Shown here: positions 29,809 to 54,278 of the stretch, in pieces
Layout: every line of letters starts with the position of its first letter
How positions within the stretch are numbered: the first letter of the stretch is position 1
Position numbers and translations under genes: made by a program
The notes under the pieces: generated by a model
Seen by the model: only the letters and a program-made list of their open reading frames with translations
What the model was told of the DNA's origin: nothing
The model's database searches: none
NCBI RefSeq assembly: GCF_021731785.1
Contig: NZ_JAKFWS010000031.1
Coordinates: forward strand, 62,001-126,000
Source: Methylocystis sp.
Lineage (GTDB): Bacteria > Pseudomonadota > Alphaproteobacteria > Rhizobiales > Beijerinckiaceae
Reading direction: 5' to 3'
Length of the DNA stretch: 64,000 nt

Positions 29809-30037
29809 GCGTGATGCGTCTGTCCCCGCTTCCCAGCCGGTTCGCGCGTGGTCCGTCGCTCTCGGGCGCGGACTGGGGTTCTGAGTTTTTTCGGCGCATC
29901 GGCGGGGCGCGGGTCGTCGTAGCTCTTGCCGGTTCAGCGGCTGTGAAGCCGAGAACTGGCAAGGGCGTTTTCACTCTTAAAACAGGCGAGCGATTACGTA
30001 TGCGATTGTCGACAAAGCAACAACGCATGATGGGGCG

Positions 30038-31392: not shown

Positions 31393-31447
31393 CTCGCGCA
31401 AGGTCAGGGGAAGCGCGAATCGAGATATCGGACTCGGAGGAATTCTG

Positions 31448-35338: not shown

Positions 35339-36326
35339 ATCACGAAAAACGAAATTTGCATCGACTGTTCTGGCGTCGACGATCATCGCGTCGATGATGT
35401 TCTACCCCGGAGGCCCGGCCTCAGCGCCCGCCTGGGCGAACGGCGGCATCGCCGTCTATCCCGTGCCTCCCGCGCCTTCGCCGGAAGATGTTGACGCCGC
35501 GGCGCATGTGCTTGGCAATCCGCTTAACAAGCCGATCACAGGCGCAGCGCACGAGCCGGCAGTGGTCGGCGGCGAGCGGCCTCCTTCTCTTGAGACCCTG
35601 CAGGCGGTGAGGGCGGGAGGAGGAGATCCCGGTCTCGGTCTCGAGCCGGGGCGGGAAGATGTGTTGCATCAAGCGGCGTTGACGTTCGGGGCGCAGGGTG
35701 GGCTGGCGGGGCGGGCGTTTGCGATCAACGAAATGCTGCGGCGTTATGAGCCGACGCTGGATGAGACCTATGATTTTCATGCGCTGGTGCTGCCGCTCGG
35801 CGGCGGGCGCACATTGATGCGGCCGCCGGTGGTCACGCATGCGCAGCTCGCGTTCGCCCTGGGCGACAACGCTCAGGTGGCGCGGGAGACCGACTGCGTC
35901 TACGGGATCACGCGCGAAGCGCAGCTTGCGTCGGCGCCGCCCAATTGGCGCGCGTATTTAGTGAGGAATTGGCGAGCGCCATCGCGCCCGCATGACGCGG
36001 TGCTGCCGCGCACCGAGCAAGAAGCCGCCTACTGGAACAAATGGGTGGCGGAGGGCTGGGCGCAGGGCGAGAAGCAGGGGGTGGAGATCTTTCTCGCCGA
36101 CCTCGGACGGCTGCAGCGGGACATCGTCGGCATGGCGCGCTATCGGGTGTTGTTGCGTCAGGGGCTCGTCGCGCATCCGAAAGTCGTTTTTCAAAACAGC
36201 ATCGTGAACGGCGGGCGCGACGAACTGCGCGCGGGCGACCGCATCGTGCGCATCACCGATCAGCCTGGCCTGCGCGCCGACGCGCGGCGGTGGGGCGCGA
36301 AGCGCCACGGGCCTTGTCCGAAATAG
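35331..36326 (+). CDS. traI: DotC/TraI family protein
   Basis: YDFHALVLPLGGGRTLMRPPVVTHAQLAFALGDNAQVARETDCVYGITREAQLASAPPNWRAYL. Confidence 0.88.
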   Translation: MSRSRKTKFASTVLASTIIASMMFYPGGPASAPAWANGGIAVYPVPPAPSPEDVDAAAHVLGNPLNKPITGAAHEPAVVGGERPPSLETLQAVRAGGGDPGLGLEPGREDVLHQAALTFGAQGGLAGRAFAINEMLRRYEPTLDETYDFHALVLPLGGGRTLMRPPVVTHAQLAFALGDNAQVARETDCVYGITREAQLASAPPNWRAYLVRNWRAPSRPHDAVLPRTEQEAAYWNKWVAEGWAQGEKQGVEIFLADLGRLQRDIVGMARYRVLLRQGLVAHPKVVFQNSIVNGGRDELRAGDRIVRITDQPGLRADARRWGAKRHGPCPK

Positions 36327-36369
36327 ACTGATCGTTTGTGGAGAGGGGGAGGAAAGCAAAGATGCGTGT

Positions 36370-36891
36370 GTGTTGACGGCGCGCCGGCTTTGTTTCGTCA
36401 GGGAGCAAGCGATGAAATACCGAAAGGATCTATGGTCCGATTTCGAAGACCTGATGAAGCAGGCGGGCATCGGCGATTGTCGGCTGGCGATCAACATCAC
36501 GGAGAAGCGCGTGCGCGCGCGTTGCGCGTCGTGGCCGTTGCCGCGGGTGGTGGAGCTGTCGCAAGGCGCGGTGGACGCCGGACCGAGCGTGTGGCGTCCG
36601 ACGCTCGCGCATCAAGCTGCGCGCACGCGCCAGCGTCGGCGCTGGCTCATTCCGTTCGGCGCAATGGCCATAATGCTCGTCGGCGCGGCGATGGGCGCGC
36701 CCGCGATCGGGCTTGCTTGCGCGGGGATTTGGCTGCTGGCGGTAAAGTGGCGCTACGAGCTCGACGCCGACAGATGGGCGGCCCGAGCGGTCGGCGTCGA
36801 GACGATGGCGCGAGTTCTCGAGAGATTAGGAATGGCTGGACGATGGCGCGCTGGCGCCTTGCGCCGTCGCGCGCGCCATCAATTGGGATGA
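36370..36891 (+). CDS. M48-peptidase-like membrane protein with degenerate zinc site (pseudo-protease)
   Basis: PRVVELSQGAVDAGPSVWRPTLAHQAARTRQRRR...KWRYELDADRWAARAVGVETMARVLERLG: M48 layout but HExxH is HQAAR; real start may be ATG at about 36412. Confidence 0.6.
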   Translation: MLTARRLCFVREQAMKYRKDLWSDFEDLMKQAGIGDCRLAINITEKRVRARCASWPLPRVVELSQGAVDAGPSVWRPTLAHQAARTRQRRRWLIPFGAMAIMLVGAAMGAPAIGLACAGIWLLAVKWRYELDADRWAARAVGVETMARVLERLGMAGRWRAGALRRRARHQLG

Positions 36892-36895
36892 AACC

Positions 36896-38053
36896 ATGCT
36901 CAATGTCGTAAAGACGGATGCAGCCGCTGGGAGAGAATGGGAGGGGCCGGGCCTGTGTTGGGTTGCGGACCCGCGCAAGAGCGCGCCAGGGCTGGATTCG
37001 CTTTTGACGTGGGCCTATCGGGCGGGGGCGTCACGCATTTCGTTTCAAACGGGGGGATCGCCTTCGATCAGGGTTTACGGCCGCAATCGCAAGGTGAACG
37101 ACGACACGCTGGACGAGGCGGAGATCGCGCAGATCGTCAATCATCTCTATGGCGCGGATGGCATGGCGCGATTGCAAGGCGGCGCGGCGCTCGACACGAC
37201 ATATGAAATCGCGGTGAGCCGCTCGGAGCGGCTGCGTTACCGGTTGAACGTCACGCCGACGCGCACGAGCCGACGCTTCGGCGCGAATGTGGTGATGCGT
37301 CCGATCCCGGATTTGCCGCCGTCGCTGGAACAGCAGCTGGTCGAGCCGGGCATCATGGAGGCGTTTCGGCCGCGCAATGGCATGGTGATCGTCTCGGGCG
37401 GGACGGGGTCCGGCAAGTCGACGCTGATCGCCGGCATGACGATCGCGAAACTGCACGACGCGAACGGTCATTACGACATTGTGGAGGGCGCCGCGCCGGT
37501 GGAGTTTTTGCTCGATCGCGTCAAGAGTCTGTGTTCGACGATCAATCAGAGCGAGATCCCGCGCGACCTGCCGACATTCGAGGAATTCATTCGCGGCTGC
37601 ATGCGGCGGGAGCCGACCGATATCATCGTCGGCGAGTGTCGCGATACGGCGACGATGAGCGCGGCCATACAGGCGGCGATTTCCGGGCACACGTTGACGA
37701 CGACGATCCATGCGAATGACGTCGCTTTGACGATGCAGCGCATTGCGAGCCTGTGTCCGTCGGCCGAGAGAGAGAATTTGATCAGCGCGGTGGCGCAGTC
37801 GTTGCGGCTGGTCATCAATCAGCGGCTGGCGCAATCGACGGACGGCAAGCGCACGGCGCTGCGCGAGTTTCTGGTGTTCGATCGCAAATTGCGCACGCGC
37901 TTTCTGGAGACGGATCCCGCGCAGTGGCCCAGCCTGACGCGACGAGCGATCGAAGAACAGGGTCAGTCATTCGCCAAATCGATCCAGAATGCGCTGATGG
38001 AAGGCCGCATCAGCGAGCAGACGGCCGCCTATGAATTGAAAGAGGAAGGCTGA
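36896..38053 (+). CDS. traJ: DotB/TraJ VirB11-like ATPase
   Basis: GMVIVSGGTGSGKSTLIAGMTIAKL; RREPTDIIVGECRDTATMSAAIQAAISGHTLTTTIHAN. Confidence 0.95.
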   Translation: MLNVVKTDAAAGREWEGPGLCWVADPRKSAPGLDSLLTWAYRAGASRISFQTGGSPSIRVYGRNRKVNDDTLDEAEIAQIVNHLYGADGMARLQGGAALDTTYEIAVSRSERLRYRLNVTPTRTSRRFGANVVMRPIPDLPPSLEQQLVEPGIMEAFRPRNGMVIVSGGTGSGKSTLIAGMTIAKLHDANGHYDIVEGAAPVEFLLDRVKSLCSTINQSEIPRDLPTFEEFIRGCMRREPTDIIVGECRDTATMSAAIQAAISGHTLTTTIHANDVALTMQRIASLCPSAERENLISAVAQSLRLVINQRLAQSTDGKRTALREFLVFDRKLRTRFLETDPAQWPSLTRRAIEEQGQSFAKSIQNALMEGRISEQTAAYELKEEG

Positions 38054-38301
38054 TGTGGCGAAACACCGCGTTGCCGACGCGCATCTTGTTTCTCGACGGG
38101 CGCGCATGCCTGCCGCTGCTCGTGTTCGTGGTCTATTGGAGCTGGGCGACGTTCTATATCGCGATCATGGGCATGACGTTTTTTGTCGTGGTCCGTTGGG
38201 CCGGACTGACCGTGCCGTCGGTGCTGCGGCTTGCGCGGCGGCTGTTCGTCGGCGCCGAGCGCACGGCGGTTCCCGTATGGAAGCGCAGGAGGGCGGCGTG
38301 A
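38053..38301 (+). CDS. IcmT/TraK family protein
   Basis: TRILFLDGRACLPLLVFVVYWSWATFYIAIMGMTFFVVVRWAGLTVPSVLRLARRLFVG. Confidence 0.85.
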   Translation: MWRNTALPTRILFLDGRACLPLLVFVVYWSWATFYIAIMGMTFFVVVRWAGLTVPSVLRLARRLFVGAERTAVPVWKRRRAA

Positions 38302-38750
38302 GCCTGGATATCGGAGAGGTCGAGGGGGTTTTGGAGCGGCTGTTGCTGAAGGAGGGACGCCCGGTGTTGCTCGCGGGGGAAAGCGTTGCGCTCGATTGCG
38401 CCGTCGCGGCGGATGGATTGCTGCCATTGTTCGTGATCGCTGGCGAAGCATTGTGGCGCGAAGTCAGGGGAGAAGGCTTTTCACTTAAAACCGAACCCGA
38501 CGACGGCGCGTTGCTCGGCTACAAGCTCGCGGAGATCGGCACGGGGTCGTTTAAGGCGGTGATGCTGGCGACGATGGAGGCGATGTTTCAGGCGGCGGGG
38601 CCAAATGGGATCATCGTCGAGGATCTGGGCCGCGTGTGGATCGCGTCGACGCGGCGGGCCGAGGCGGCGCAATCGGTCGGAGATGCCGATGAAAATGCGA
38701 TGCAGGCCGGGAGCGGTTCGATGGAACGGCCCAAGGCGGAGACGATTTGA
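38277..38750 (+). CDS. Hypothetical T4SS-cluster protein
   Basis: ATG 38277 overlaps icmT; 157 aa soluble. Confidence 0.5.
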   Translation: MEAQEGGVSLDIGEVEGVLERLLLKEGRPVLLAGESVALDCAVAADGLLPLFVIAGEALWREVRGEGFSLKTEPDDGALLGYKLAEIGTGSFKAVMLATMEAMFQAAGPNGIIVEDLGRVWIASTRRAEAAQSVGDADENAMQAGSGSMERPKAETI

Positions 38751-39271
38751 TGAAGAGGATATTCGTTTGCGCGCTCGCGATCGCGGCGTTGCACAACGCC
38801 CCGACGCGGGCGGCCGACGACATGGCGCGCGGGACTTTTATCAAGGAGTGCATTGACGCGGCGGCGAGCGCTCACGCTGTTCCGCCGGCGATCTTGTTGA
38901 TCCTGCTCAACGTCGAGAACGGACGCCTCGGGGAGGTCAGTCAGAACACAAATAAGACCGTCGACATCGGTCCGATGCAAGTCAACGATAGTTGGCTGCC
39001 CAAACTCGCGGCGCATTGGCGGGCGTCGGTGGATGCGACCTACCTCGCGCTGCGCGATGAGTTTTGCGCCAATATCGAAGCGGGCGCATGGATTTTGCGC
39101 CAGGCGCTCGACGAGGCGAAGGGCGACATTTGGGAAGGCGTCGGCCTCTATCATTCACATACCGAGCGGCACAAGACGGAGTATCTGCGTAAAGTATTGC
39201 AGCACGCCGGACGATTGCAGAAGCGCGCGTCGGCCGAGTTGGTCGCCGACAATGGTGCGGTGGGGAGGTAA
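38747..39271 (+). CDS. Lytic transglycosylase (SLT-like, VirB1/IcmX-position)
   Basis: ILLILLNVENGRLGEVSQNTNKTVDIGPMQVNDSWLPKLA. Confidence 0.88.
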   Translation: MMKRIFVCALAIAALHNAPTRAADDMARGTFIKECIDAAASAHAVPPAILLILLNVENGRLGEVSQNTNKTVDIGPMQVNDSWLPKLAAHWRASVDATYLALRDEFCANIEAGAWILRQALDEAKGDIWEGVGLYHSHTERHKTEYLRKVLQHAGRLQKRASAELVADNGAVGR

Positions 39272-40404
39272 TGGCGCGCTCGGCGTCCTCCCACGAAGGC
39301 GGCAGCGACGGCGCGGCGTTTCTCATGACCGTGGCGGTGTTTGTCGTCGGGATCGGATTGGGCGGTTGGTATCTCTGGGAGGAGATGCATGCCGAGATCA
39401 GCGCGATTGCGATGCAGACGTTGCACGGGCAGATGAGGCTCATTCATCTGTTCACCGACCGTTATGACGTCGCCGACGCGCAGGTTATGGCGACCGATCC
39501 GACCAAAGTGAAATTTCTTCAACTCGTCCGCCTCGCGCGCGAGGTCGGGCGCTTCTTTCTTCTGCCGTCTATCGGGCTGGTGCTGGTTCTGGCGGCGGCG
39601 TGTTTCAGCCGCGCAGGAGCGAAGCGGTTTTCCAGAGCGCTCGATCTCGAAGGATTGATACGCGAGCAGGTTAAGACGTTTCGTACGCCGGCGGCCTTCG
39701 TCGGGCGGCGTTTGGGCTTGGTCGATATCGACCACAAAGAGCCCCGGCCGGCAGATCGGGCGTTGAGCCGCGCCGAGTGGGTCGCACGTTGGGCGACGGA
39801 CAAGAACGGCGGGTTCAACGAGGGGGCGGCATGGGCCGAGCTCGCGCGCCAACTCGGCGACCCCAGACGCGAGCCTGAAGATGCCCCGCCGCATCTGCGC
39901 TGCATGCTGGCGGTTTTTTCTCTACATCGCGCGCAGCGACGGGATGAAGCGCTCGCCTATCTCGGCGATCTCTCGGAGTCCCTCATCCCCGCCGGCAAGG
40001 AAGGGCGCGGGGGCCCCGCAAAGGGGCTCGCTTTCCCGGTTGCCCTGATCGCCAAGGCCGATGACTTGCTTGGTTCGCGCGATTTCCGACAGCCGCTCGT
40101 CGACACGATGAGCATGCACGGTTTCACGACGACGGCGGCGATGAGCGTGTTGATCGCGGCGCGGCTGGAAGGGGGCGTTCTACCGCCGTCGCAATTCGGG
40201 TTTTTGAAGCTGGTCGACCGCCGGCTCTGGTATGCGCTGCATTCGTTGGGATATCCCGCCGACATGTTCAATCCGCAACTCCATCCGACGCCGCGCGTCG
40301 AGGCGCTCGGCGCGCGCGATCATTGGGCGACGGAACGGATGCTCGGCGAAGCTTTGTCTCTCCCGTCGATCGACCGCGCCCTCTCCGCGCTCCGATCGTC
40401 CTGA
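39271..40404 (+). CDS. trbA: DotM/IcmP/TrbA family protein
   Basis: Two TM plus C-terminal FLKLVDRRLWYALHSLGYPADMFNPQLHPTPRVEALGARDHWATER. Confidence 0.85.
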   Translation: MARSASSHEGGSDGAAFLMTVAVFVVGIGLGGWYLWEEMHAEISAIAMQTLHGQMRLIHLFTDRYDVADAQVMATDPTKVKFLQLVRLAREVGRFFLLPSIGLVLVLAAACFSRAGAKRFSRALDLEGLIREQVKTFRTPAAFVGRRLGLVDIDHKEPRPADRALSRAEWVARWATDKNGGFNEGAAWAELARQLGDPRREPEDAPPHLRCMLAVFSLHRAQRRDEALAYLGDLSESLIPAGKEGRGGPAKGLAFPVALIAKADDLLGSRDFRQPLVDTMSMHGFTTTAAMSVLIAARLEGGVLPPSQFGFLKLVDRRLWYALHSLGYPADMFNPQLHPTPRVEALGARDHWATERMLGEALSLPSIDRALSALRSS

Positions 40405-40695
40405 TGGCTGCGCAGGGAGTTCGCGGTCGTAACGACGGCGAGGATCGAGTTGACCGGTGGGGCGGCGGCTGCGTGATTGTCGCCCTGCGTCACAGGTTTG
40501 AGTTTTCGCATATCGGCAAATCCGTGTTCGGGGGCGTTGCGGGAGGGGCAAAGCGAGTCATGAGGGGCGATCCGAGCCGACAAATTTGGCGGAAAGGCGA
40601 TCGATGGATTTCGCGGCGGCGACGGAAATATCGAGGGATTTTATTCGCGCGAGGCCGTTCGATCATGTGTCGCGAACGCAAGTAAGGAGGTTTTG

Positions 40696-41157
40696 ATGGA
40701 GGCGCCTTTCTCGGATGCGGCGGACGGCCGGTCGAAAATCATCGTCGAGCCGCCGCACATTCATATCGATGTGCATGTTCATCTCGATGGGGCCGTCGGC
40801 GTTGCGCCCGTAGCGGATAAGCGGGACGCCCCATCTCGCGAATTTGACCAGCCGCCAGCGGCCAGCGAGAGGTCGAAGCGGCCGTTGCTCACCAGTCTCG
40901 TGGTTGCGGCCGGCGTGCTGGCGGTCGGTTACGGCGGCTATCATGCGGGGATCGTCTCTTCGGCCCAACAAGTCTCGTCGCCCCGCCTCGCCGCCGCGGT
41001 GCGGCCGCCTAATCATCCGACGGATACGGCGCCCGCTGCGTTGCCGGAGGCGCTCGCCCGCGAGTTGCAGCAGGCGCCGCAGATCACGCCGCCGCCGGGG
41101 GCGGCGACGAAGTCCGGCGCGCCATCTGGTCCGGCATCTTTCGGACTGCACGACTAG
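40696..41157 (+). CDS. Single-TM hypothetical protein
   Basis: LLTSLVVAAGVLAVGYGGYHAGI. Confidence 0.5.
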   Translation: MEAPFSDAADGRSKIIVEPPHIHIDVHVHLDGAVGVAPVADKRDAPSREFDQPPAASERSKRPLLTSLVVAAGVLAVGYGGYHAGIVSSAQQVSSPRLAAAVRPPNHPTDTAPAALPEALARELQQAPQITPPPGAATKSGAPSGPASFGLHD

Positions 41158-41199
41158 CGCGGGCGAGGTCGCGATTTCAATGGACAACGGAAGGCGGCG

Positions 41200-41553
41200 A
41201 TGAGGGAAGCGCGAGATTGCGATCCGAATGTGTTGCATCCGGAAACCGAGGCGGCCGTCGAACAGTTTGCGAGCGCTTTGAAAGCGAAATTGGTTCGAGC
41301 GCAACAAAAATATGGTCATTCGACGGGTTGGAAATATGAGGATTGGCGGACAACCTGCCAATCCGAATTGACGAGACACGTCGCCAAAGGCGATCCCTTG
41401 GATGTCGCCGCTTATGCTCTGTTCTGTTGGGCGCGCGGCTGGACGACGTGCGCGCGTTCGGACGGCTCGGATTTGATGTCGTCGCCAGGCCGCATCGCGT
41501 CGGCGAACGCGATCGGCGCAGGTTCGGCGCGGCTCCTCGGAGGCGAGGCATGA
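41200..41553 (+). CDS. Conserved phage/plasmid-type hypothetical protein
   Basis: FASALKAKLVRAQQKYGHSTGWKYEDWRTTCQSELTRHVAKGDPLDVAAYALFCWARGW. Confidence 0.55.
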   Translation: MREARDCDPNVLHPETEAAVEQFASALKAKLVRAQQKYGHSTGWKYEDWRTTCQSELTRHVAKGDPLDVAAYALFCWARGWTTCARSDGSDLMSSPGRIASANAIGAGSARLLGGEA

Positions 41554-43862
41554 TCCCGCGCGAGATTTCAGGACCGCAGGATCGGTTCGAGCGCTCGGGC
41601 GCTCAGGCGTTGCGTGACTTGAGGCCGATCTCGACGCGAGCGTGGGCCGCGTTGATGAGCGAATTTTCGGGGGCTGTGCTCGCGGTCGCCGCCGGCGTGA
41701 TGGCGTTCGAGCCGGCCGCAGTCGAGGTGATCGTTCCGGCGGCTATCGGTTACGCTGGTCTGGTGCTGACGCGGCGAGTCAAATTGCCGCTGCGGTTGCC
41801 GAAGAGCGCGGGGATGAAGGATTGGAATGACCCGGATCCGAAAAACCGGCAGCCGCGGCGGGCGGCGGGCGTAGTGTATCTCGGCCGCGACGTGAACGGC
41901 AAGGAATTGTGGATCACCGCGCCAGACGCGCGCCAACATGGGACGATTCCGGGAACGACCGGCGCGGGAAAGACGACGGCGATCCTGAGTTTCTTATGCA
42001 ACGCCCTGACTCATGGGAGCGGCTTCGTCCTGGTCGACGGCAAGGGGGACAGCGAGCTGTTCGGCGAGGTGATGGCGTTCGCGCGGCGGTTCGGGCGCGA
42101 GGACGACGTGTTGCATCTCAATCTGCTCGTCGCCAGCGGCAGCAAGGAGAGCCACAGCTTCAATCCTTTCGCGACGGGCAACGCCGACCAGATTCGCGAG
42201 ATGGTGGTGAGCCAACTCGGAGAACAAGCGGCCAATGATTCGAACGGCGTGTTCCGCAGCCGCGCCGTCGCGCTGATTGGAGCCGTTATACCGGTTTTGA
42301 CGTGGATCAGGGATCACGCGGGCATAGGAATCGACATCGAGAAGATTCGCGACGCGCTGGAATTGCGCGTGATCTGGAAACTGGCGGTTAAGGGCGATTA
42401 CGAGCTGCGCGATCCGGCGACGAGCAAGACGAGGGACATTCGGCTGGATTTGCCGCAGGACGTCGTCTACCCGCTGAGAGCCTATCTCGGGGAGCTTCCA
42501 GGCTATGATACGGAGCTCGACTACAACAAGCAGAAATCGGACGATCCGTCGAAGCAGCATGGCTATGCGCGATTCTACTTCACGGAAATGTTCACGCAGT
42601 TGGGGGTGTCGCTCGGACACATCTTCAAAGTCGAGCAGGGCGACATCGACATGCGCGACGTGATCCTGAATCGGCGCATACTCGTGGTCTCCTTGCCGGA
42701 TTTGGAGAATTCGTCCGACACGTTGGCGGGGCTGGGCAAGATCGTGGTGACGTCAGTGCGCGGCATGATGGCGCAGATGTTGAGCACGCCGAGGGCGATG
42801 CTGGGGCCGGACGCTCCTTATCCGGTGGTGTTCGACGAGGTTTCGTCTTACGCGACGAGCGATTTGGCGCGGATGTTGAGGCAGGGTCGCGCCCTGAATA
42901 TTTCGTTCTGGCTTGGCTTTCAGGAAGTCTCGGGCATTTTCGCCGAGCTCGGCGAGAGAACATACACGCTGCTCGGCAACGCTGCTCTCACCGTGGCGAT
43001 GCGTTTGCAAGACGCCAATCGAACGCGTCAATGGATAGAGGAGACGTCGGGCAAGGCGGATGTGGCTCAGGCGACGAGCTATCGTGGCGGGGACATCGGC
43101 GAATATCACGACACGCGCCAGGCCGATGTGCGGCAGGTGGCGCGCGTGGACTGGCGGGACCTTCAGCGCCTGATCGAGGGCGAGGCGATCATTCTGTCGG
43201 GCGACCGGCGCATTCACGCCAAGGTGTTTCATGCGGTGGTGGACAAGACCGGGCCGAAGCGGCTGGTGCGGCCTGTTCCGCTGGAGCTACCCGCGCGTCA
43301 AACGGTCCAGGATCATCGGGAACGCATTCGGGAGATCGCGAGCCGGATCGAGAACGGGATCATCGCGGCCGGTGGGGCGGAGCCAATGTCGCCGACATTA
43401 CGGGCTATGTATGAGGGGTTCCGCGACGAGCTGGAGAAGGGCGGCAACGGGCGGGCGTGCGTCGATGCGGCGATCGCGGCCGCCGGGAGGGTTCCCTTCG
43501 CTCCTGGCGAGACGGGCGGATGGCAGGCGCGGTTCGCGCCGATGCTGGAGTCGGCGGTGGATGGAACGCCGGGAGAATCGGCGCATGTCGTGGCGCTGCT
43601 CGATCCTGGCGACGCCAGGCTTTTTACCACGCTCGTCGAGATCGAGACGACCGCCGGAGCGTCGGAGCAGAAAGCGCGAGAAAATGTGTCGGCTCTGATG
43701 GCGCGGGTCGCGGCGGCGGTGAAGGAATTCGGCGGTCGGAAACCAACACCTCCGACCGCCTCTAAATTGCGCGAGAATTTGGAGATGCGCGTGATCGCCG
43801 GAGGGGCCGATGTCGATGAGGCGCAGCCGGCGGTCAGACGAAGCATGGGAGCGTCGCCTTGA
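41550..43862 (+). CDS. trbC: DotL/IcmO/TrbC type IV coupling protein
   Basis: HGTIPGTTGAGKTTAILSFLCNALTHGSGFVLVDGKGDSELFGEV; VVFDEVSSYATSDLARMLRQGRALNISFWLGFQEVSG. Confidence 0.93.
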   Translation: MIPREISGPQDRFERSGAQALRDLRPISTRAWAALMSEFSGAVLAVAAGVMAFEPAAVEVIVPAAIGYAGLVLTRRVKLPLRLPKSAGMKDWNDPDPKNRQPRRAAGVVYLGRDVNGKELWITAPDARQHGTIPGTTGAGKTTAILSFLCNALTHGSGFVLVDGKGDSELFGEVMAFARRFGREDDVLHLNLLVASGSKESHSFNPFATGNADQIREMVVSQLGEQAANDSNGVFRSRAVALIGAVIPVLTWIRDHAGIGIDIEKIRDALELRVIWKLAVKGDYELRDPATSKTRDIRLDLPQDVVYPLRAYLGELPGYDTELDYNKQKSDDPSKQHGYARFYFTEMFTQLGVSLGHIFKVEQGDIDMRDVILNRRILVVSLPDLENSSDTLAGLGKIVVTSVRGMMAQMLSTPRAMLGPDAPYPVVFDEVSSYATSDLARMLRQGRALNISFWLGFQEVSGIFAELGERTYTLLGNAALTVAMRLQDANRTRQWIEETSGKADVAQATSYRGGDIGEYHDTRQADVRQVARVDWRDLQRLIEGEAIILSGDRRIHAKVFHAVVDKTGPKRLVRPVPLELPARQTVQDHRERIREIASRIENGIIAAGGAEPMSPTLRAMYEGFRDELEKGGNGRACVDAAIAAAGRVPFAPGETGGWQARFAPMLESAVDGTPGESAHVVALLDPGDARLFTTLVEIETTAGASEQKARENVSALMARVAAAVKEFGGRKPTPPTASKLRENLEMRVIAGGADVDEAQPAVRRSMGASP

Positions 43863-44773
43863 AAAACAGAGAGAGACGTGCGGGCGCGCTTCGGCGCGGC
43901 GCGGCGATTTTGGGAATTGCGCTGTTGCCTGTGGCGTTCGCGGGATGCCAAGACGAGGAACAGGCGGAGAGTCGGCAGCGGCCGCAGACGTTCATGACGG
44001 CGCAGGCCCCACGGCCGTTCGCGGGGGCTGGGCCGGTTCAGACTGCGCGCCCGACTGACGCCGCCAAATTCGCCTATACCCATGAATTGTGGATTGTGGT
44101 GGCGCCGCGCTGGGTGGGGCCGCATTTCGAGCGAGCGAAGTCGTTATGCGCGAGCGACGCGTCACTGCGATGCGTCCTGCTGGACGCGAGCACGAATCTG
44201 AACGACGGCGGCCCCTCTCGCCCGAGCGCCAATCTCCAGGTGCGGCTTCCCCACGGGTCGGTCGCCGCGTTTACGAAGATCGTGACGACGGCGGTCGAGG
44301 GGGAAAATCAGAGCGATCTTGTGGTGAGCCGGTCGGCGACACGGTTGGAGGATCTCGGCCAGCCGCTCGCCGATACCAAACGGCGACGGGAGCAGCTGGA
44401 CGATTATCGCAATCGTCTGAAGGCGCTGGAGGGGCGCGCGGATACGCGGGCGGAGGATCTGATCAAGATCGCCAACGAACTGTCGCGCACGCAGTCGCAG
44501 ATCGAAGAAATCGACGAGCAGCGACGTAAGCTGGAGGAACGCGTCGACACCGAGCTGGTGAGCGTCTTCATTCAATCGGAAGCGCCGTCCGGCGGGCCGC
44601 TGGCTCCGATCGAACAGGTGTGGAGGCGCGCGGCGAACATCATCGGGGCGAGCGCGGCGGCGGCGCTTCGCTTCGCGCTGATGGCGGCGCCGTGGACGCC
44701 GCTCATTTTTATTGTCGCCCTTTTGTTGCGCTGGATTCTGCGGGGCTGGCGGCGCCGCCGCGAAGATGCTTAG
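43859..44773 (+). CDS. DUF4349-like lipoprotein
   Basis: Signal/lipobox LLPVAFAGC; SATRLEDLGQPLADTKRRREQLDDYRNRLKALEGRADTRAEDLIKIANELSRTQSQIEEIDEQRRKLEERVDTELVSV plus C-terminal TM. Confidence 0.75.
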   Translation: MKNRERRAGALRRGAAILGIALLPVAFAGCQDEEQAESRQRPQTFMTAQAPRPFAGAGPVQTARPTDAAKFAYTHELWIVVAPRWVGPHFERAKSLCASDASLRCVLLDASTNLNDGGPSRPSANLQVRLPHGSVAAFTKIVTTAVEGENQSDLVVSRSATRLEDLGQPLADTKRRREQLDDYRNRLKALEGRADTRAEDLIKIANELSRTQSQIEEIDEQRRKLEERVDTELVSVFIQSEAPSGGPLAPIEQVWRRAANIIGASAAAALRFALMAAPWTPLIFIVALLLRWILRGWRRRREDA

Positions 44774-45350
44774 TGGGAGCGAAGCGTTTGGCGCGGGGCT
44801 CGGCGGTCTCGTTGAGGCGCTGGCGCGCAACAGGGGGACGGCGCTCATCGCGCTCGGCGCCGTCGGGTTCCTTTGTCTGGCGTTTCTCTCCCTTCGGACG
44901 CGCCCGCCGCGTTACCGGCGCGGACGCTTTCTTTCCCAAAACGAGAAGCGCTTCCTTTGCGCCCTGGACGAGGCGGTGGGGGAGGACTATCGCGTTTTTG
45001 CGCAAGTGCGGCTCGCCGATCTCCTCGATGTCGATGCGGGCCCGCGCGAGCCACGACGATGGCGAGCGATGCGGCCCGTATTCGGCAAGAGCGTCGATTT
45101 CGTGATTTGCGCCGCGGCGACATTGGAGCCGGCGGCGGCGATCGAAGTCGACGACCGAACGCATCTGCTTTCCCATCGCCAGGAGCGGGACGTGTTCGTC
45201 AATACGGTGTTCGCGGAGATCGGGTTGCCGTTGCTGCGCGTGTCGGCTCGACGCAGTTACTCGGCGAGCGCGGTCAGGAAGATGCTGGCCGACGGCGGCG
45301 TCGATTGTGGATCGGCGAGAACCGGTTTCAAAGCTATGGAGCGACTATGA
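44766..45350 (+). CDS. DUF2726-like protein (restriction-nuclease-like fold)
   Basis: FLSQNEKRFLCALDEAVGEDYRVFAQVRLADLLDV...KSVDFVICAAATLEPAAAIEVDDRTHLLSHRQERDVFVNTVFAEIGLPLLRVSA. Confidence 0.75.
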   Translation: MLSGSEAFGAGLGGLVEALARNRGTALIALGAVGFLCLAFLSLRTRPPRYRRGRFLSQNEKRFLCALDEAVGEDYRVFAQVRLADLLDVDAGPREPRRWRAMRPVFGKSVDFVICAAATLEPAAAIEVDDRTHLLSHRQERDVFVNTVFAEIGLPLLRVSARRSYSASAVRKMLADGGVDCGSARTGFKAMERL

Positions 45351-46125: not shown

Positions 46126-47613
46126 ATGAACGACAAATCATATGACATTGCGTTGCTTCGTGCGGCTCCCAAGGGAGACGCCGATGCGTCGACGCAATGC
46201 CTGACGCCGGTCGAAGACCAGCTTCTTCGCGAAGCCTTCGGACGCTATGGCGGAGAGGCGCAGGCGCGAGCCGATGCGGCCTTGGTCGTGGCGCGCTATC
46301 AGCAGATGGGCGGTGGCATGTGGTTCGTTTGTGGCTGTCGTGAAGACGGTGGCCGCTTTCCGGTGCTGGTTCCGGTTTCCCAAACGCACATCCGTCGGCA
46401 TGAGGATGGGATCTGGCCGGGGCATGACGAGGCATGCGATTTTTTCCGCGACCCGGAACAGCAATGCGCCATCTTGCGCAGCTACCGGCGCGAATCCGGT
46501 AATGACGCGATCCGATTGGCGAGAGCGTTCGGAGAGCCGGGTCCAAAGTTGGAGCGAGCGTTTGTTGGGGTGTCCGTTGCGAGGAGCCGGCCGACGCTGG
46601 CTCGTCTTCTCGCTCGGATCGTCGATGACGCGGGACTGCAGAAGATTCCGCCCGGCTGGCGGAAACCACCGTCGCTGCGCGACCAGTCGGCGGCGCTCTG
46701 GGAGGCGGCCAGGGGCGTGTATTTGGACTCCAATGTGCGTCTTCCGGATTTCTTTTGCACCAGTGCGCGCAAGCTCGGGGAGTTAGTCGAAAAGATCGGC
46801 AAAACGAGGCCGGGACGCTTCACGTGCACCCGTCCGCACGGCGTATTGATCGCGCGCCTCGAGGCGATTCACTCGGGCGCGCTCGAACCGATGGCCGGCG
46901 ATCCGATTCCGGTGCGCGGACGCATCGCCGTGTTCGGGGAGCGGGCAGGGCGTGGTGGATCGCTCGCGGACAATGCGCGAGCGCCCTATCTCGCGGCTTG
47001 TGTAGTTGGGCGTGCGGAGGACGACGGGCCAGTGGAAGTCTTGTCGGCCTATGCGCATCCTTGCGCGAGCGCGGACCATTTGATGCTCGTCGACAGCGAT
47101 TACGAGAGGCGGACTCTTGCGCAATTGCGAAGTCTCCAGGAATGGCTCGAGAAAAAACGCGGCGTCGGTCTCACGATCGAAAAGCCGGTGTTCGAACTGG
47201 GACCTGTCGATGAAGGGGAAAATTCGTCAGTGGGACGAGGGGTCTGCATTCCGGATTTCGTGTTGCGCGCGACGGGCGTCGGCGACGGTGGGCATGAGAT
47301 CGCGATCATCGAGACGATGGGATTCGCAGATGCGAGCTATCGCACCCGCAAGACGCGGATGCACGCGATGATGAGCGCCGCGCTCGGCGGCGCACCGGTC
47401 GTGATGCACGATTTCGTGGAGATCGGCAGCATGAGTCGGGAAGAGTATGATCGCGCGTTTTGGCGCGGCCTGATGCGACTCGTGGCGGGGCGCGGAGATG
47501 TTCCGACGCGAGATGGCGGGATCCGGAGGCCGAGAGATATTCGATGCGCGCCGGTTCAGCCCCCGGGCGAGGGGGAAGAACGTCGCGGAACAGGAGCGTC
47601 GGCAGCCGGCTGA
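46126..47613 (+). CDS. DUF1173-like plasmid protein
   Basis: 496 aa; CGCREDGGRFPVLVPVSQTHIRRHEDGIWPGHDEACDFFRDPEQQ...IPDFVLRATGVGDGGHEIAIIETMGFADASYRTRKTRMHAMM. Confidence 0.55.
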   Translation: MNDKSYDIALLRAAPKGDADASTQCLTPVEDQLLREAFGRYGGEAQARADAALVVARYQQMGGGMWFVCGCREDGGRFPVLVPVSQTHIRRHEDGIWPGHDEACDFFRDPEQQCAILRSYRRESGNDAIRLARAFGEPGPKLERAFVGVSVARSRPTLARLLARIVDDAGLQKIPPGWRKPPSLRDQSAALWEAARGVYLDSNVRLPDFFCTSARKLGELVEKIGKTRPGRFTCTRPHGVLIARLEAIHSGALEPMAGDPIPVRGRIAVFGERAGRGGSLADNARAPYLAACVVGRAEDDGPVEVLSAYAHPCASADHLMLVDSDYERRTLAQLRSLQEWLEKKRGVGLTIEKPVFELGPVDEGENSSVGRGVCIPDFVLRATGVGDGGHEIAIIETMGFADASYRTRKTRMHAMMSAALGGAPVVMHDFVEIGSMSREEYDRAFWRGLMRLVAGRGDVPTRDGGIRRPRDIRCAPVQPPGEGEERRGTGASAAG

Positions 47614-50600
47614 TCGGCTGTCCTCGGTCGAGCGCGCGGCGCAGAGCGCTGTTGAAGCAACCCGGCGTCGAGACTTTGAAGCGTGTCGCGAAGCAAGGCG
47701 GAGTTGCGTTTTGCGTCCTCACCGAATTCGGCGATGTGCCGCGCCAGATGGTCGATGAGGATGTTCGAGCATGCTCGTTCCCGGGCCTGCCGTCCGGCGT
47801 CTTTGCATTCCGACGCCCATTTATGAAACGCGTGGCTCTGTTTGATGAAGGCGTCGATCCCTCGCTCCTTGGTCCGTCGGTAGGCCTCGACGAGATCGAG
47901 GGCGAGCGATTTATAAGGCTTGTGCGCCATGTCGGCGGCGACGCGCCGCCATAAGTCCTCGCTCTCGATCGGCTTGGCGTCGCCGAGCGCCCGGCTTCTT
48001 TTCTCGGCCTCGTAGACGGCGGCTTCGGAAATCATCGTCCAGGTTTGTCCTCTGGCGCGGCTTTCGGCGACGTAGGCCTTGAAGGCGGTGATGCCGGCGC
48101 TGCCGCGCGGCAGGGCGTCGATATGTTCGTCGGAGGTGCGGCCCTGCGCGGCGTCGACGGTCAGAGCGTGACCAAAACCGAGCATGAGGCGTTTGGTCTT
48201 CGGATCGATCAGCCGTCGCCACTCGACCTCGCCGATTTGCCCTTTTGCGTTTTGAAGAACCAGCCCTTCGTCCGTCTTGCCGAGCACTTTGACGACATGG
48301 CCGTTATAGCCGATCGGCCCCTGCTTGCCGTCGATGCGCGCCCAAGTATAGCGATAGAGGCGCAGATGATCTCCGGTGGCGATCGGCAGGTCGAAGGTGT
48401 GCGGTTCGTTGGAGCCGCGCGGGGCGACGGCCTTGTGGATCGTCTCGTCATCGCCGATTTCGCCGCGCGCTTTCAGGCGGTGGCGTATCGCCACACTGAT
48501 GGCGGCGGCGTCCTCGTTGGTGAGTGTCGAGACGGTGACGCTGCGTGTCGCGCCCCCAGCCCGCAACATATCGCGTCGATTGAGATAGAAGCCGGCGATT
48601 TTGCTGGCGACCTGGTCGTAGTCGCCGCCGACGAGCATGGCCGAGCCGTCTTCCCTTTTCATGGAGAGGGCTTCTTGCGCCTTGGCGTCGCGAAAGAGGC
48701 CGGCGATCTGGCGATGGCGCCTGTCGATCTGGCGAACGGCCGTCAGGAGTTCGGGCTGCGCCGTCCGCGGCAGGGCGCGGCGCATGATCTCGATCGTGTC
48801 GCCGGCTTCGATCGCCTGGGCCTGCTCGCGGTCGCCGAGCGCCTTGATGGTCATGCCGGTTTTGGCTTGCAGTTCGAGCAGCCGCAGCATCGGTCGCGGG
48901 GCGATCTGGCTGATCTCGTCGATGACGAGGATCGTGTTGCGGGTCGGGATGAATTCCCCCGATTCGACAGTATTCAAGAAGGGTTCGAGCGCCCGCGTCC
49001 ATTGAACGCCGGGGACTTGCAACTGGTCGGCTTGGCTCCAGGCGGTGGACACGCCGACGATTTCCCGTCCGCCCGCGTCGAAACGCGTGTCGGCTTTCCA
49101 GGCGGCGACAAGCGGCTGCAGGAGCGTGGTCTTGCCGGAGCCGGCGACGCCGGTAAGCAGCGTGAGCGCGCCGCCCTGGCCGAGCGCGTAGATGGCGGCT
49201 TTCTGGGCGGCGCCGTGTTCCGGTTCGCTATCGAAATCGAGCCCGGAGGCGTCGATGGCGTCGCGAATGGCTTTTGTGGGGAGAGCGCCGGAGATGTCGA
49301 GGGCCGCGCGCGTAGCGCGTCGTTGCAAGTCCGCCTCGATGCGGATTTGCGCGGAGTTGGTGACGCGCAGCACTTCTCTGGCCTCGTCGTCGGCCGGATC
49401 GCGTTTGGCCCAGGCCATCACCAGATCGACATGTTCGCCTCTGAGCTCGATGCCCTTGCGTTCGATCAGTTCGACGACGCGGTCGATGTCCTCCGCGCCG
49501 CCGCCGACGCCGGCCCCGATTAGTCCGCGCGCTGCGTGGGTGCGAAGTTTGTCGTGGTCGATGACGGCCGATGTGTGGAATTCGTCGGCGAGATGCTTCG
49601 CCGCGAAGGCGTAGGCCTGTTCGTAACGCTCGGCGTCGGTGAGCGTCTTGTGTTGGACGTCGTCCAACACGGTCGTGTGTTCCCAGCCGATCGCCTCTGC
49701 CTGGGCGCGCCAGATTTGATGATCGTTTTTCTCGCCGTGCTTGGCGAGGCGCGCGGCGACGCCAGCCTCTGCAAGGATTTCGGCCTTTTTCTCAGCGGAG
49801 ATGTCGTCCCAATCGAGGCCCTGGCTGGTCGCGAAGGCTTTGGCGTTGCGCAGGACCTGATGGCGGCTCTTGCTGAACGCCTCATTGGCGAATTGAGGAA
49901 TGTCGGCAATGACGACGGCTTCTTCTTTTGCGTCATAGGCGACGCGGATACCGAGCGCCCGCAATTCGTCGGCGAGGACGGCTTGACCGAAGGCGCCGAA
50001 CTCGTGGACACGCGAGTGTAGGCGCTGGGTGTCGAGCGAGCCGATATGGCCGTCGTCGGTGACGACGATGTTGAACATGGCGTTGTGAATGTGATCGTGC
50101 GGGTCGCCGGCGATCGGCGCTTCCAGGAGATAGGTGGCGCCGTCGCGACCGTCTTGGACAGGAAGGGTCGGGCGGGCGATGTAATGGCGAAAACTGACCC
50201 ATGTGACCGCACCTGGATCGGAGCCGTTCTCGCCCGCGCGTCCCCGCCTGGCCCAGCCGATTTCTCGGGCGATATAGTGCATGGCGGCGTCGTTGGCGCG
50301 AGCGATGGCGGTGCGGATGGCGGCGGATTCGGCCGGGCTGGCGGCGAATTCGGCCGCCAGCGTCACGGATTTGTGCGGCGAGAAGGTGAAGTCGTAACCG
50401 CTGATGTCTCTTTTGTGTTTGGACCAGGCCTCGCCATTGTCGGCGCGCTTGCCTTCGAACAGGCGGTCGAGTTCTTCGTCTTTCGGCGCATGATGAGAAT
50501 TGACGCCGAGGGCGCGGGCGATCGGCAGCGGCATGTCGCGTCGCCATTGCGGGCCGCTGTCGGAGCCGGCGTAATAGTCGGTGAGCCGGCTGCCGGGCTC

Positions 50601-50720
50601 GAGCGGGCGACCGGGAGCCTCGGGCGTTTGTGCGGCGGACTGACCGATTTTGGCCTCGGTGAAATACATACGGACGAGCTTGCCGTTGGAGCCGGCGGCG
50701 AATTTGCGAAAGGTGATCAT
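47556..50720 (-). CDS. MobF-family conjugative relaxase-helicase
   Basis: SRLTDYYAGSDSGPQWRR, GYDFTFSPHKSVTLAAE, GDPHDHIHNAMFNIVV (HUH triad), LTGVAGSGKTTLLQPLVAAW, TILVIDEISQIAPRPMLRLLELQ. Confidence 0.95.
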   Translation of the reverse strand: MITFRKFAAGSNGKLVRMYFTEAKIGQSAAQTPEAPGRPLEPGSRLTDYYAGSDSGPQWRRDMPLPIARALGVNSHHAPKDEELDRLFEGKRADNGEAWSKHKRDISGYDFTFSPHKSVTLAAEFAASPAESAAIRTAIARANDAAMHYIAREIGWARRGRAGENGSDPGAVTWVSFRHYIARPTLPVQDGRDGATYLLEAPIAGDPHDHIHNAMFNIVVTDDGHIGSLDTQRLHSRVHEFGAFGQAVLADELRALGIRVAYDAKEEAVVIADIPQFANEAFSKSRHQVLRNAKAFATSQGLDWDDISAEKKAEILAEAGVAARLAKHGEKNDHQIWRAQAEAIGWEHTTVLDDVQHKTLTDAERYEQAYAFAAKHLADEFHTSAVIDHDKLRTHAARGLIGAGVGGGAEDIDRVVELIERKGIELRGEHVDLVMAWAKRDPADDEAREVLRVTNSAQIRIEADLQRRATRAALDISGALPTKAIRDAIDASGLDFDSEPEHGAAQKAAIYALGQGGALTLLTGVAGSGKTTLLQPLVAAWKADTRFDAGGREIVGVSTAWSQADQLQVPGVQWTRALEPFLNTVESGEFIPTRNTILVIDEISQIAPRPMLRLLELQAKTGMTIKALGDREQAQAIEAGDTIEIMRRALPRTAQPELLTAVRQIDRRHRQIAGLFRDAKAQEALSMKREDGSAMLVGGDYDQVASKIAGFYLNRRDMLRAGGATRSVTVSTLTNEDAAAISVAIRHRLKARGEIGDDETIHKAVAPRGSNEPHTFDLPIATGDHLRLYRYTWARIDGKQGPIGYNGHVVKVLGKTDEGLVLQNAKGQIGEVEWRRLIDPKTKRLMLGFGHALTVDAAQGRTSDEHIDALPRGSAGITAFKAYVAESRARGQTWTMISEAAVYEAEKRSRALGDAKPIESEDLWRRVAADMAHKPYKSLALDLVEAYRRTKERGIDAFIKQSHAFHKWASECKDAGRQARERACSNILIDHLARHIAEFGEDAKRNSALLRDTLQSLDAGLLQQRSAPRARPRTADQPAADAPVPRRSSPSPGG

Positions 50721-50722: not shown

Positions 50723-51040
50723 TCAGGCCTTTGCAAGAGCGGAGAAGTGCGTCTCGAGCGCCTCGACGGTCTTGCTCGGCAGGTTTTGCTGCATGTCGAT
50801 GAGGAGATCGACGGCCTTGCGCGTGAGGATAAGTTGTTCGCGTCCCTGGGCGATCAGATGGGCGAGCAACTCACTCAGGGTCGGCTCCCCGGCGTTGTCC
50901 TTGGGCGTGAGGAGGGCGATGATTTCGTCGAGGCGAGCGATGGCGAGCCGGTTTTGATCGTTCTGGCTCTTCGCCGCCGCGAGGATATTGTGGGTTTCGG
51001 TCTCGATACGGGAGAGAGCGTCTTTCAGTTCGTCGGTCAT
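50723..51040 (-). CDS. Hypothetical protein adjacent to relaxase
   Basis: 105 aa helical; immediately upstream of relaxase. Confidence 0.5.
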   Translation of the reverse strand: MTDELKDALSRIETETHNILAAAKSQNDQNRLAIARLDEIIALLTPKDNAGEPTLSELLAHLIAQGREQLILTRKAVDLLIDMQQNLPSKTVEALETHFSALAKA

Positions 51041-51200
51041 GACGTCGTCCAATGGTTGCTGCCGCGGGGGAAACCGCCACAGGCAATCACGCCTTTGCGC
51101 GAATTCGTCTTAGAAAAATCGCGGAACGAAAAAATGAGATCCGGCGAAAGGCGCGGGGGCGCCCGCCATGGGATCGTGCGGCAAGCGCGGCGGCGGGCGC

Positions 51201-52745
51201 TCAGCGTCCCTTGCCGGAGCGGGGGGCGGACGCCGGCGCGCCAGCGGGACGCGCGCCGGGCGGGTGGGCAAGCGGCGGCGAGTTCGCGGAGCTGCGCGAG
51301 GGCGGTTTGCCTGAAAATATCCCCATGAGCGTCTGCTGGCGTTTCGACAAGGGATAGCGCGCGCGTTCTTGCGGCGGCGGGGCCGCCGGGAGATCCGGAG
51401 TTGGAGCCGTCGCCGGCCGCGGGGCTTCGGGGAGCGGCTTCGGAGCGGATGGCGCGTGCGACGCCTCGGGCTGGCGCGGCTTCGCCTTTTTCGGCTGAAC
51501 CCGCAAAGGCGCGGGCGCATCCTTCACCGCCACCGTCGCCCGCTCAGGTTGCCCGCCAGGGCCTCTGCGGTTTTCGCCGGGCGCCCGCGCAGCGGATCCG
51601 GGCGCGGCCGTCTTCTTCTCGGCGCGCGGCATGGTCGCCGGGCGCGTTTGTGGCGCGGAGACTGTCGGTGTGTCATGCGCGCGGTCCCGGCGCTCGATGG
51701 CCGCGAGCCGCTCACGGGCGTTCGCGATTTGCGCCGCGGTCAGGATCTCGTCCACGGGGTTGCCGTCGAGATCGACGGGCGCCCGTCCGGCGAGGACGGC
51801 ACGGCAATAATCGGGGCGCGTCCTGTAGCGGTCGAGAACGTAATTCAGCAGGCCGATGTCGACGTCCGGCAGCCGGGCGCGCAAATCAACGTCGACGCGA
51901 TGTTTCAGGGGCGCGACGGCGGGCGCGCCCGCGCGCTTGAAGCAGGCGGGAAAGGCGGCGGCAAGCCTGTCGAGCAGTTTGGCCGCGCTGGCGCGGCGTG
52001 CGGCGACTGATGCGGCGCGTGTGGAAAGAAACTCTTGCGCATGGGCGGTTTCCCGGGGCGTGAAGACGGTCTGGACCACCTGGCCGTCGAGGTCGACGCG
52101 CGGGCGACCGGCGATAACGCCGCTCTGATAGGCGGCGGAGCGCACATAGAGCCGCAGCGCGGCGTGCAGCAGGACGGGATCGATGTCGGGCTGGCGCGCG
52201 AGAATGTCGGCGTGGATGCCGATCTTGACAGGATGCGGCACAACACCCTTGCTCTTGAAACAGCCGGGGAAGTCGCCGGCGAGTTTGTCGAGCAGCGTCG
52301 CGATGTCGCGGAAGCCTTTCTTTTTGGCCTTCTGATTGAGATCGAAGCAAGCGAGCCGTCTTTCGGCTTCGGCTTTTTCTTCCGGGGTGATGACGGCCTG
52401 GACGATCTGACCGTCGAGGTCGATGCGCGGGCGGCCGGCGATGAGGGTGCGCCAATAGTCGGGTCCGGAGGCGTAAACGCGCAGGGCGGATGTCAGGAGG
52501 ACGGGATCGGTGTCGGGCCGGCGCGCCAGGACGTCGGCGTGGATGTCGAGCTTGATCGGCGAAATGTCCGGCGCCCGGTGCGGCTTGAAACAGGCGGGGA
52601 AGGCGGCGACGAGTTCGTCGAGGAGGGCGCGCACGGCGGCGTAGCCCGGCCGCTCGGCGCCCTCCGCCGCGCCGGCCGCTTGCGTTTGTTCGGCGGCGCC
52701 GCGGCCACAAGGAACGCTGGTTTGGTTGTTGTCGAAAGCCGTCAT
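51201..52745 (-). CDS. Protein with three tandem ProQ/FinO domains and Pro-rich C-terminal tail
   Basis: Three copies of ALLDEL..FPACFK...PIKLDIHADVLARRPD.D..LL..ALR.Y..S.DY...LIAGRPRIDLDGQ.VQ.VITPEE. Confidence 0.88.
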   Translation of the reverse strand: MTAFDNNQTSVPCGRGAAEQTQAAGAAEGAERPGYAAVRALLDELVAAFPACFKPHRAPDISPIKLDIHADVLARRPDTDPVLLTSALRVYASGPDYWRTLIAGRPRIDLDGQIVQAVITPEEKAEAERRLACFDLNQKAKKKGFRDIATLLDKLAGDFPGCFKSKGVVPHPVKIGIHADILARQPDIDPVLLHAALRLYVRSAAYQSGVIAGRPRVDLDGQVVQTVFTPRETAHAQEFLSTRAASVAARRASAAKLLDRLAAAFPACFKRAGAPAVAPLKHRVDVDLRARLPDVDIGLLNYVLDRYRTRPDYCRAVLAGRAPVDLDGNPVDEILTAAQIANARERLAAIERRDRAHDTPTVSAPQTRPATMPRAEKKTAAPGSAARAPGENRRGPGGQPERATVAVKDAPAPLRVQPKKAKPRQPEASHAPSAPKPLPEAPRPATAPTPDLPAAPPPQERARYPLSKRQQTLMGIFSGKPPSRSSANSPPLAHPPGARPAGAPASAPRSGKGR

Positions 52746-53048: not shown

Positions 53049-53889
53049 TCACAACACCACGACGCGGGCGCCCTTGGCGACGCGCCGGTAAAGATCGATG
53101 ACGTCGGCGTTGAGCATGCGGATGCAGCCCGACGACACGGCGCGGCCGATCGTCTCCGGTTCGTTGGTTCCATGGATGCGAAACAGCGTGTCCCTGGCGC
53201 CGGTGAAGAGGTAGAGAGCGCGCGCGCCGAGCGGATTGTTGAGGCCGCCGTCCATGTGCTGGGGCAGATCGGGGCGGCGTCCCAGCATCTCGCGCGGCGG
53301 CGTCCAGCCCGGCCAGAACGCCTTGCGGCCGATCCGCGCCTGCCCCTTCCAGGAGAACCCCTGTCGCCCAACGCCGACGCCATATTCGATGGCGCGTCCG
53401 TCGGAAAGCGACAGATAGAGCTTGCGCGCATGCGTATCGATGGTGATCGACCCCGCGGGCTGGCCGGTCGGGTCGGACACGACGCGCGCCGTCGATAGGC
53501 TGAAATCGACCTCGCCGTCGTAATCGACCGGCGTCGAGTAAGCGGGATCGGCATCGGCGGGGAGCGCCGCCACGCGCGCCCCGTCGTTCGGCCGCGCCGC
53601 CGGCGTGGCGCCATGGTCGAACCCCGGTTCTCGCGCCCGGCGACCTCGCGGAGAAGGGGGCGGCTCGTAACCGCCGTCTTGCTCGGGGTCGTTGGACCAG
53701 GGGTCGTTGTTAAGGCCCTGCGACTGGTCGAGCGGACGCGCGGGTGAAGCCGGATTGGCCGGGTAGATCGGGTAGGCGATTTGCCGGGTCGCGATACCCA
53801 TACTCGTAATATTGCGCGACGGCGGGGGAGGCGGCGAGGAGCGCCCCAGCGGCGAGAAGGGCGGCGAGTGGGGGGCGAGCGGTAAACAC
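53049..53889 (-). pseudogene. L,D-transpeptidase (YkuD) with N-terminal signal peptide in a different frame
   Basis: GSITIDTHARKLYLSLSDGRAIEYGVGVGRQGFSWKGQARIGRKAFWPGWTPP...FRIHGTNEPETIGRAVSSGCIRMLNADVIDLY; signal peptide MFTARPPLAALLAAGALLAASPAVAQYY out of frame with the body. Confidence 0.75.
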
Positions 53890-53945
53890 GATCGGGCGCT
53901 CCTTATATTTTGCGAAAGCGAGCTTTTCGGCAACGCGTGGCGATC

Positions 53946-54278
53946 TTAAGGAGGGGAGCCCGGCCTGACCGCTCGCGACGCCGTCGCCAATCTTAGATGG
54001 GGAGCCGGCTTGAACACGACGACCCGGCGCGGCGTGACGAGGGCGGCGACGCCGGTTCTCGGATTGCGGCCGGGGCGGGCGTTCTTGCAGCGGACACGAA
54101 AGACGCCGAATTTGCGCAGCCGCACGTCCTCTCCGCGCGCCAGCGCGCAGAGGATTTCCTCGAGGACGCAATCGACCAGGGCGCTGGCGTCCTTGCGGGA
54201 AAGGCCGGGGAGGCGGGCGTAAATGGCGTGCGCGAGGTCGTCGCGCGTCAATGTGCGTTTGGAAACGGTCGCGTCCAA
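53946..54278 (-). CDS. IHF/HU-family DNA-binding protein
   Basis: LTRDDLAHAIYARLPGLSRKDASALVDCVLEEILCALARGEDVRLRKFGVFRVRCKNARPGRNPRTGVAALVTPRRVVVFKPAPHL. Confidence 0.93.
   Translation of the reverse strand: MDATVSKRTLTRDDLAHAIYARLPGLSRKDASALVDCVLEEILCALARGEDVRLRKFGVFRVRCKNARPGRNPRTGVAALVTPRRVVVFKPAPHLRLATASRAVRPGSPP

Follow-up and report, generated by a model that had tools for sequence, protein, structure and literature searches.

IncI plasmids use I-type, Dot/Icm-related transfer. On I-type plasmids two FinO/ProQ proteins have been described that lower replication, FopA by stabilizing the Inc antisense RNA against repZ and PcnR by binding the repA leader (PMC9977716). Those plasmid-borne members that have been characterized regulate the plasmid that encodes them by way of one or few RNAs (PMC9977716), and FinO also binds RepX, the replication antisense RNA of another plasmid (PMC8136791). 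In the structure of RocC with RocR, the 3' nucleotide sits in a pocket made up of a conserved Tyr and Arg together with a Gly, an N-cap Ser-Lys and the following Arg grip the hairpin, and tight binding by RocC requires the N-cap basic residues (PMC9674577). The antisense ctRNA represses repC on repABC and repC plasmids (PMC10194956). Published accounts present FinO/ProQ proteins as small and monomeric, each with a single RNA-binding domain of this kind. The domain family and its general way of working are already known; the two- and three-domain tandem architecture and the plasmid context reported here go beyond the published picture of a family of small proteins (PMC9977716). No description of a tandem ProQ/FinO architecture was found in the literature searched, whose reach mostly stopped short of subscription journals.

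The window analyzed here, a stretch of 64,000 nucleotides, encodes a protein of 514 aa, 54.8 kDa and pI 10.1, a size and three-domain layout that depart from the 14-27 kDa stated for the FinO/ProQ family (PMC9977716). A Pfam search of this protein matched PF04352 (ProQ/FinO) over three stretches with 176 bits (E 1.9e-52) and returned no other domain. Each of the three domains, D1, D2 and D3, exceeded the curated PF04352 cut-off of 27 bits (Table 1), in agreement with the initial annotation, which had read three tandem ProQ/FinO domains, the third most divergent, and a Pro-rich tail from the sequence. D1 and D2 are 55% identical while D3 is 41-45% identical to either, and the C-terminal tail (21% Pro over 164 aa, 17% Arg+Lys, pI 11.6) is probably disordered judging from its composition. 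The frame is open with normal codon bias, and a chance or mis-called ORF was ruled out by the three separate HMM matches, the codon bias and the homologues. The three domains were the sole ProQ matches in the 4.2 Mb host genome in the PF04352 search. The protein scored 39.7 bits against the NCBIfam FinO model NF010317, far under its cut-off of 136 bits, and 113.5 bits against the enterobacterial ProQ equivalog NF003434 (cut-off 127), whose C-terminal Tudor domain is absent.

Table 1. Location of the tandem ProQ/FinO gene, its domains and the neighboring plasmid genes, in window coordinates
Feature	Position	Strand	Remarks
Triple ProQ/FinO-domain protein gene	51201..52745	-	ATG start, 514 aa, 3 PF04352 matches
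D1, ProQ/FinO domain	52323..52637	-	PF04352 58 bits
D2, ProQ/FinO domain	51990..52304	-	PF04352 74 bits
D3, ProQ/FinO domain	51678..51986	-	PF04352 55 bits
Basic Pro/Ala-rich C-terminal tail, 164 aa	51204..51695	-	Composition only
Dot/Icm (MPF_I) conjugation cluster	12975..45350		Syntenic with pMSC49b
MobF relaxase/helicase	47556..50720	-	NF041492 above cut-off
Small protein gene, 105-109 aa, directly before mobF	50723..51052	-	Conserved on pMSC49b, pOB3b2 and Methylocapsa pRX1
L,D-transpeptidase (YkuD) gene	53049..53933	-	With ProQ, the segment between HU and small/mobF; absent there in pMSC49b
HU-family protein gene	53946..54278	-	pMSC49b homologue directly before small+mobF

Structure prediction, which had been proposed as a check on the domain reading, supported it. 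AlphaFold models of D1 and D3, built from the three domains alone, reached a pLDDT of 91 and 89, respectively, with the same helix order in both. In a structure search the D3 model matched RocC, the Legionella ProQ homologue, NMB1681 and FinO (1dvo, E 2e-3) and nothing else at E < 0.01. Its best match and closest solved fold was RocC (7rgt, TM 0.78). RocC has only one domain, and although the equivalents of its Tyr87 and Arg97 are kept in D1 and D2, those of its N-cap Ser70, Lys71 and Arg75 are lost in all three domains.

RNA-binding residues were compared with those of 75 other family domains using E. coli ProQ numbering (Tyr70, Arg80 and Gly37; N-cap Ser53, Lys54 and Arg58), which is our own mapping through the alignment. 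D2 keeps Gly37, Tyr70 and Arg80; D1 keeps Tyr70 and Arg80 and has Asp in place of Gly37; D3 keeps Tyr70 and carries Gly37 to Arg, Arg62 to Asp and Arg80 to Pro replacements. Arg80 was present in every one of the other domains that cover this position (73/73 of the 75 compared). The N-cap triplet reads D/P/T in D1, D/P/H in D2 and D/I/N in D3. Loss of Arg58 is common and the residue is not family-defining, as it is absent from 22 of the 75 other domains; the second domains of the Methylosinus relatives described below retain it. With Tyr70 and Arg80 kept in D1 and D2, the N-cap lost throughout and Arg80 lost in D3, the sequence makes it plausible that D1 and D2 bind 3' tails but contact the hairpin more weakly, which avidity may offset, and that D3 is altered or inactive in the canonical sense.

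Relatives were sought with PF04352 at four taxonomic levels, in 399 genomes sampled from the phylum, 385 from the class, 398 from the order and 248 from the family (partly overlapping sets, about 1,400 proteobacterial genomes). Among the matches listed, ORFs with at least two ProQ domains occurred only in the window's genome (three domains) and on Methylosinus plasmids (two domains). The gene is intact in Methylosinus G975 (254 aa) and G987 (271 aa). It is split by a one-base frameshift on pMSC49b (contig C3 of G880; WP_142864563/WP_142864562, L025 19759-20504), and in Methylosinus sp. Ce-a6 it is broken by an insertion sequence within the first domain (L076 about 9953-10159). These four genes, the only tandem relatives found, are 44-45% identical to the window protein and are carried by the same plasmid type. 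They differ from it in having two domains and no Pro-rich tail, in lying at the other, DotA end of the Dot/Icm cluster and, for the intact copies, in standing beside a solo repC. The link between tandem ProQ genes and conjugative plasmids is real because the Methylosinus genes flank the same Dot/Icm cluster; the initial annotation had named homologues without any tie to conjugative elements as evidence against its reading, and the tandem homologues do have such a tie. The PF04352 search found no ProQ match in the other sampled members of the window's own genus, and about 97% of the sampled alphaproteobacterial genomes were without ProQ. Neither tblastn nor pattern scans gave phage or IMG/VR relatives, and of the scans of genome contigs the single-sequence one found no relatives and the profile one only Methylosinus sp. 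Ce-a6. Alphaproteobacterial ProQ/FinO members are reviewed as mostly recent arrivals on mobile elements (PMC9977716), which fits the present case.

A phylogeny of the three domains had also been proposed at the outset, and it was informative in part. D1, D2, D3 and the Methylosinus domains formed one clade with support of 98/94 in a larger tree and 99/97 in a smaller one; the tree gave no firm order within the clade, nor a firm orthology of D1, D2 and D3 to Methylosinus d1 and d2, and AU tests rejected no arrangement. Next to the tandem clade stood single-domain ProQs of Hyphomicrobiales. Several of these single-domain genes are found in phage-like arrays together with genes for terminase, SSB, a sliding clamp or a recombinase. 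Over about 100 codons each, dS was 0.50 between D1 and D2 and 0.84-1.24 between D1 and Methylosinus d1, and this lower divergence suggests that a D1-D2 duplication or gene conversion postdates the split from Methylosinus. The two intact two-domain Methylosinus genes gave a dN/dS of 0.29, indicating that the two-domain gene is under purifying selection. A separate 15-kb contig (G938:C99, L068) carries a single-domain ProQ gene and two mmgR/suhB-type sRNA matches at 4788-12734.

The window is part of a 131-kb contig with repA, repB, repC, a Dot/Icm (MPF_I) cluster and a MobF relaxase, apparently a large, self-transmissible plasmid of an alphaproteobacterium related to methane-oxidizing bacteria. 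Because the two ends of the contig do not overlap, a closed plasmid is only inferred. The cluster, which bears out the assignment to a Dot/Icm-type element, encodes DotA/TraY, DotI, DotH, DotG, a large ATPase, DotD, DotC, DotB/TraJ, IcmT/TraK and the coupling protein in the gene order of Methylosinus plasmid pMSC49b; most core proteins of the two clusters share 65-88% identity. On the minus strand the order is HU, YkuD, ProQ, small gene and mobF. The tandem gene was therefore correctly placed just upstream of MobF on the same strand, with one small ORF intervening (148 bp from the ProQ stop to the small-gene start). A tie to the relaxase operon beyond this plasmid was not supported. On pMSC49b the HU gene directly precedes the small gene and mobF, and the Methylosinus two-domain genes lie at the other end of the cluster; because YkuD and ProQ occupy an indel relative to pMSC49b, the position next to mobF is particular to this plasmid. 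A conserved relaxase-operon gene was ruled out, as pMSC49b, pOB3b2 and pRX1 all lack ProQ at that place, and searches of the OB3b and Methylocapsa plasmids that share this mobF returned no ProQ. The HU-family gene of pMSC49b (L029 31860-32177) is missing from the PLSDB gene table.

RNA genes were sought on the contig and around the tandem gene. Upstream of repC the contig carries an S-element (60.2 bits, gathering 47) and a predicted antisense ctRNA whose score of 46.4 bits is just under the gathering level of 50 (E 1.7e-8), the presence of both being judged by sequence only. This was the only ctRNA match in the host genome. Its predicted fold is a GC-rich hairpin with a pyrimidine-rich 3' tail and a terminator-like end, and ctRNA hairpins folded better than shuffled sequences (z -4.0 for the window's contig, -2.9 and -2.6 for others). 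On two Methylosinus plasmids the intact two-domain gene has, at a distance of about 1.8 kb, a solo repC accompanied by an S-element and a ctRNA of its own (L064 16489-17950 and L062 2561-4012); the G987 plasmid has a full repABC besides its solo repC. On the two Methylosinus plasmids without that solo repC the ProQ gene is broken, by the frameshift in one and the insertion sequence in the other. The Methylosinus genomes have 3-6 ctRNA genes each, on several replicons. No match to the FinP family was found on the 131-kb contig at the Rfam gathering level, which leaves room for a FinP-like RNA of new sequence, and for known sRNAs near the gene a search of 44-58 kb gave no Rfam match, even with the threshold relaxed to E < 1. 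Around the gene 4 terminator-like sites were counted versus 2.7 expected by chance, none of them on the strand of the gene.

By analogy with the described I-type systems, our leading reading, possible though short of probable, is that the protein acts in plasmid replication control. A single mobile-element ProQ domain would have been tandemly duplicated to give a plasmid-borne FinO/ProQ RNA-binding protein, with the basic, probably disordered tail supplying RNA-chaperone activity. The conserved pockets of D1 and D2 would grip terminator-like RNAs by their 3' tails, D3 would make a different contact, and the protein would stabilize a plasmid antisense RNA and/or aid pairing with its target. The likeliest target would be the replication switch formed by ctRNA and repC, much as FopA acts on Inc and repZ, and the protein would then keep plasmid copy number low. 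The closest parallel is FopA of IncI1 pCol1B9, likewise a FinO-domain protein on an I-type transfer plasmid with an antisense RNA controlling the initiator. FopA, compared by its description only, is small, has one domain and works on Inc/repZ, whereas the window's contig has ctRNA/repC. PcnR of IncI2 is similarly a plasmid-borne FinO/ProQ protein of an I-type plasmid that acts on replication but, again by description only, has one domain and binds the repA leader without an antisense RNA. The features that mark the FopA/PcnR setting were found on the window's contig, namely Dot/Icm genes with repABC and a predicted antisense RNA upstream of the initiator gene.

The ctRNA near repC on the contig, the solo repC/ctRNA pair near the intact Methylosinus genes and the breakage of the gene where solo repC is missing are suggestive of replication control. 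The ProQ-repC neighborhood is one shared block in two related plasmids and so counts as a single observation, picked post hoc. The contrast between broken and intact genes was likewise spotted post hoc and comes from four plasmids, two of them near-identical, and thus from few independent lineages. Against replication control, repABC ctRNA systems usually run without a ProQ protein, given that 97% of the sampled alphaproteobacterial genomes have none; the N-cap basic residues on which tight binding by RocC depends are missing from all three domains; pMSC49b keeps its main ctRNA despite the frameshifted ProQ gene; and in the assembly more than 100 kb separate the window's ProQ gene from repC, on a contig that is not closed. 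For this lineage of Dot/Icm plasmids it is doubtful, in our estimate, that several pockets in one chain hold antisense RNA and target mRNA at once, with D3 serving another ligand; if true, tether-driven pairing by a multivalent FinO/ProQ protein would represent a mode of action new to this protein family.

Control of fertility, which we rate as rather unlikely, is a live rival to replication control. The protein could stabilize a candidate antisense RNA that represses a Dot/Icm or mobF regulator, as FinO does through FinP-traJ, or repress the downstream mobF operon directly. Its short distance from the small gene and mobF, which share its strand with no intervening terminator-like site there, fits such a role, as does the finding that all known tandem relatives are on Dot/Icm plasmids. 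However, the relaxase neighborhood is not conserved, no ProQ was matched on the mobF/Dot-Icm plasmids of OB3b and Methylocapsa, and the FinO-FinP-traJ system of F-like plasmids, though plasmid-borne and of the same fold, has one domain and an F-type T4SS, while the window's contig yielded no FinP match and the protein scored far below the FinO model. The RNA-based layer of transfer control proposed in the initial annotation thus stands as possible, but not as the best-supported reading because FopA and PcnR on I-type plasmids act on replication, not conjugation (PMC9977716). A broader RNA chaperone, whose multivalent domains bind many host and plasmid terminators as a plasmid-encoded ProQ where the chromosomal one is absent, is unlikely. 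The host genome has no other ProQ, as is the case for most sampled alphaproteobacterial genomes, and tandem domains with a basic tail would raise avidity, but for the plasmid-encoded members known so far the number of targets is one or very small (PMC9977716), and with 2 of the 4 Methylosinus copies broken the host is not dependent on the gene.

Two further explanations each seem improbable. One is that the protein captures antisense RNAs of rival repABC plasmids or prophages, as in the binding of RepX by FinO or the use of RocC by a Legionella plasmid sRNA. The multiple ctRNA genes of the Methylosinus genomes and the phage-like setting of some near single-domain relatives are consistent with this, whereas the window's genome has just the one ctRNA match, on the same contig. 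The other, to which we give an equally low chance, is a neutral or decaying expansion, in which unequal recombination would have left the tandem domains behind as a by-product and D3 would be losing function. D3 has lost the otherwise invariant Arg80 as well as Gly37, two relatives are broken, and the D1-D2 dS, being below that of D1 and d1, indicates that domain number changes quickly. Yet the 514-aa reading frame is uninterrupted and has normal codon bias, the D3 model is still that of a folded domain, and the two-domain gene is under purifying selection. As for replication control, large alphaproteobacterial plasmids have ctRNA/repC as their standard copy-number switch, and this pair would be a candidate FinO-type target of which we found no report in the searchable literature. 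The natural series of two and three domains on one plasmid family makes it possible to test directly how additional domains affect RNA affinity, specificity and duplex formation.

Several other features were noted on the contig. Besides MobF, the contig encodes a second relaxase, MobA/MobL with a helicase-like AAA_30 region, at window positions 60535-61881 (+). The protein encoded at window positions 10154-11260 (+), on the edge of the Dot/Icm cluster, has a weak, below-cut-off match to the DsbC N-terminal domain and is conserved on related Methylosinus plasmids. Group II intron matches were found on the same contig outside the window, at about 29593-31531 and 43533-44128 of G000:C4.
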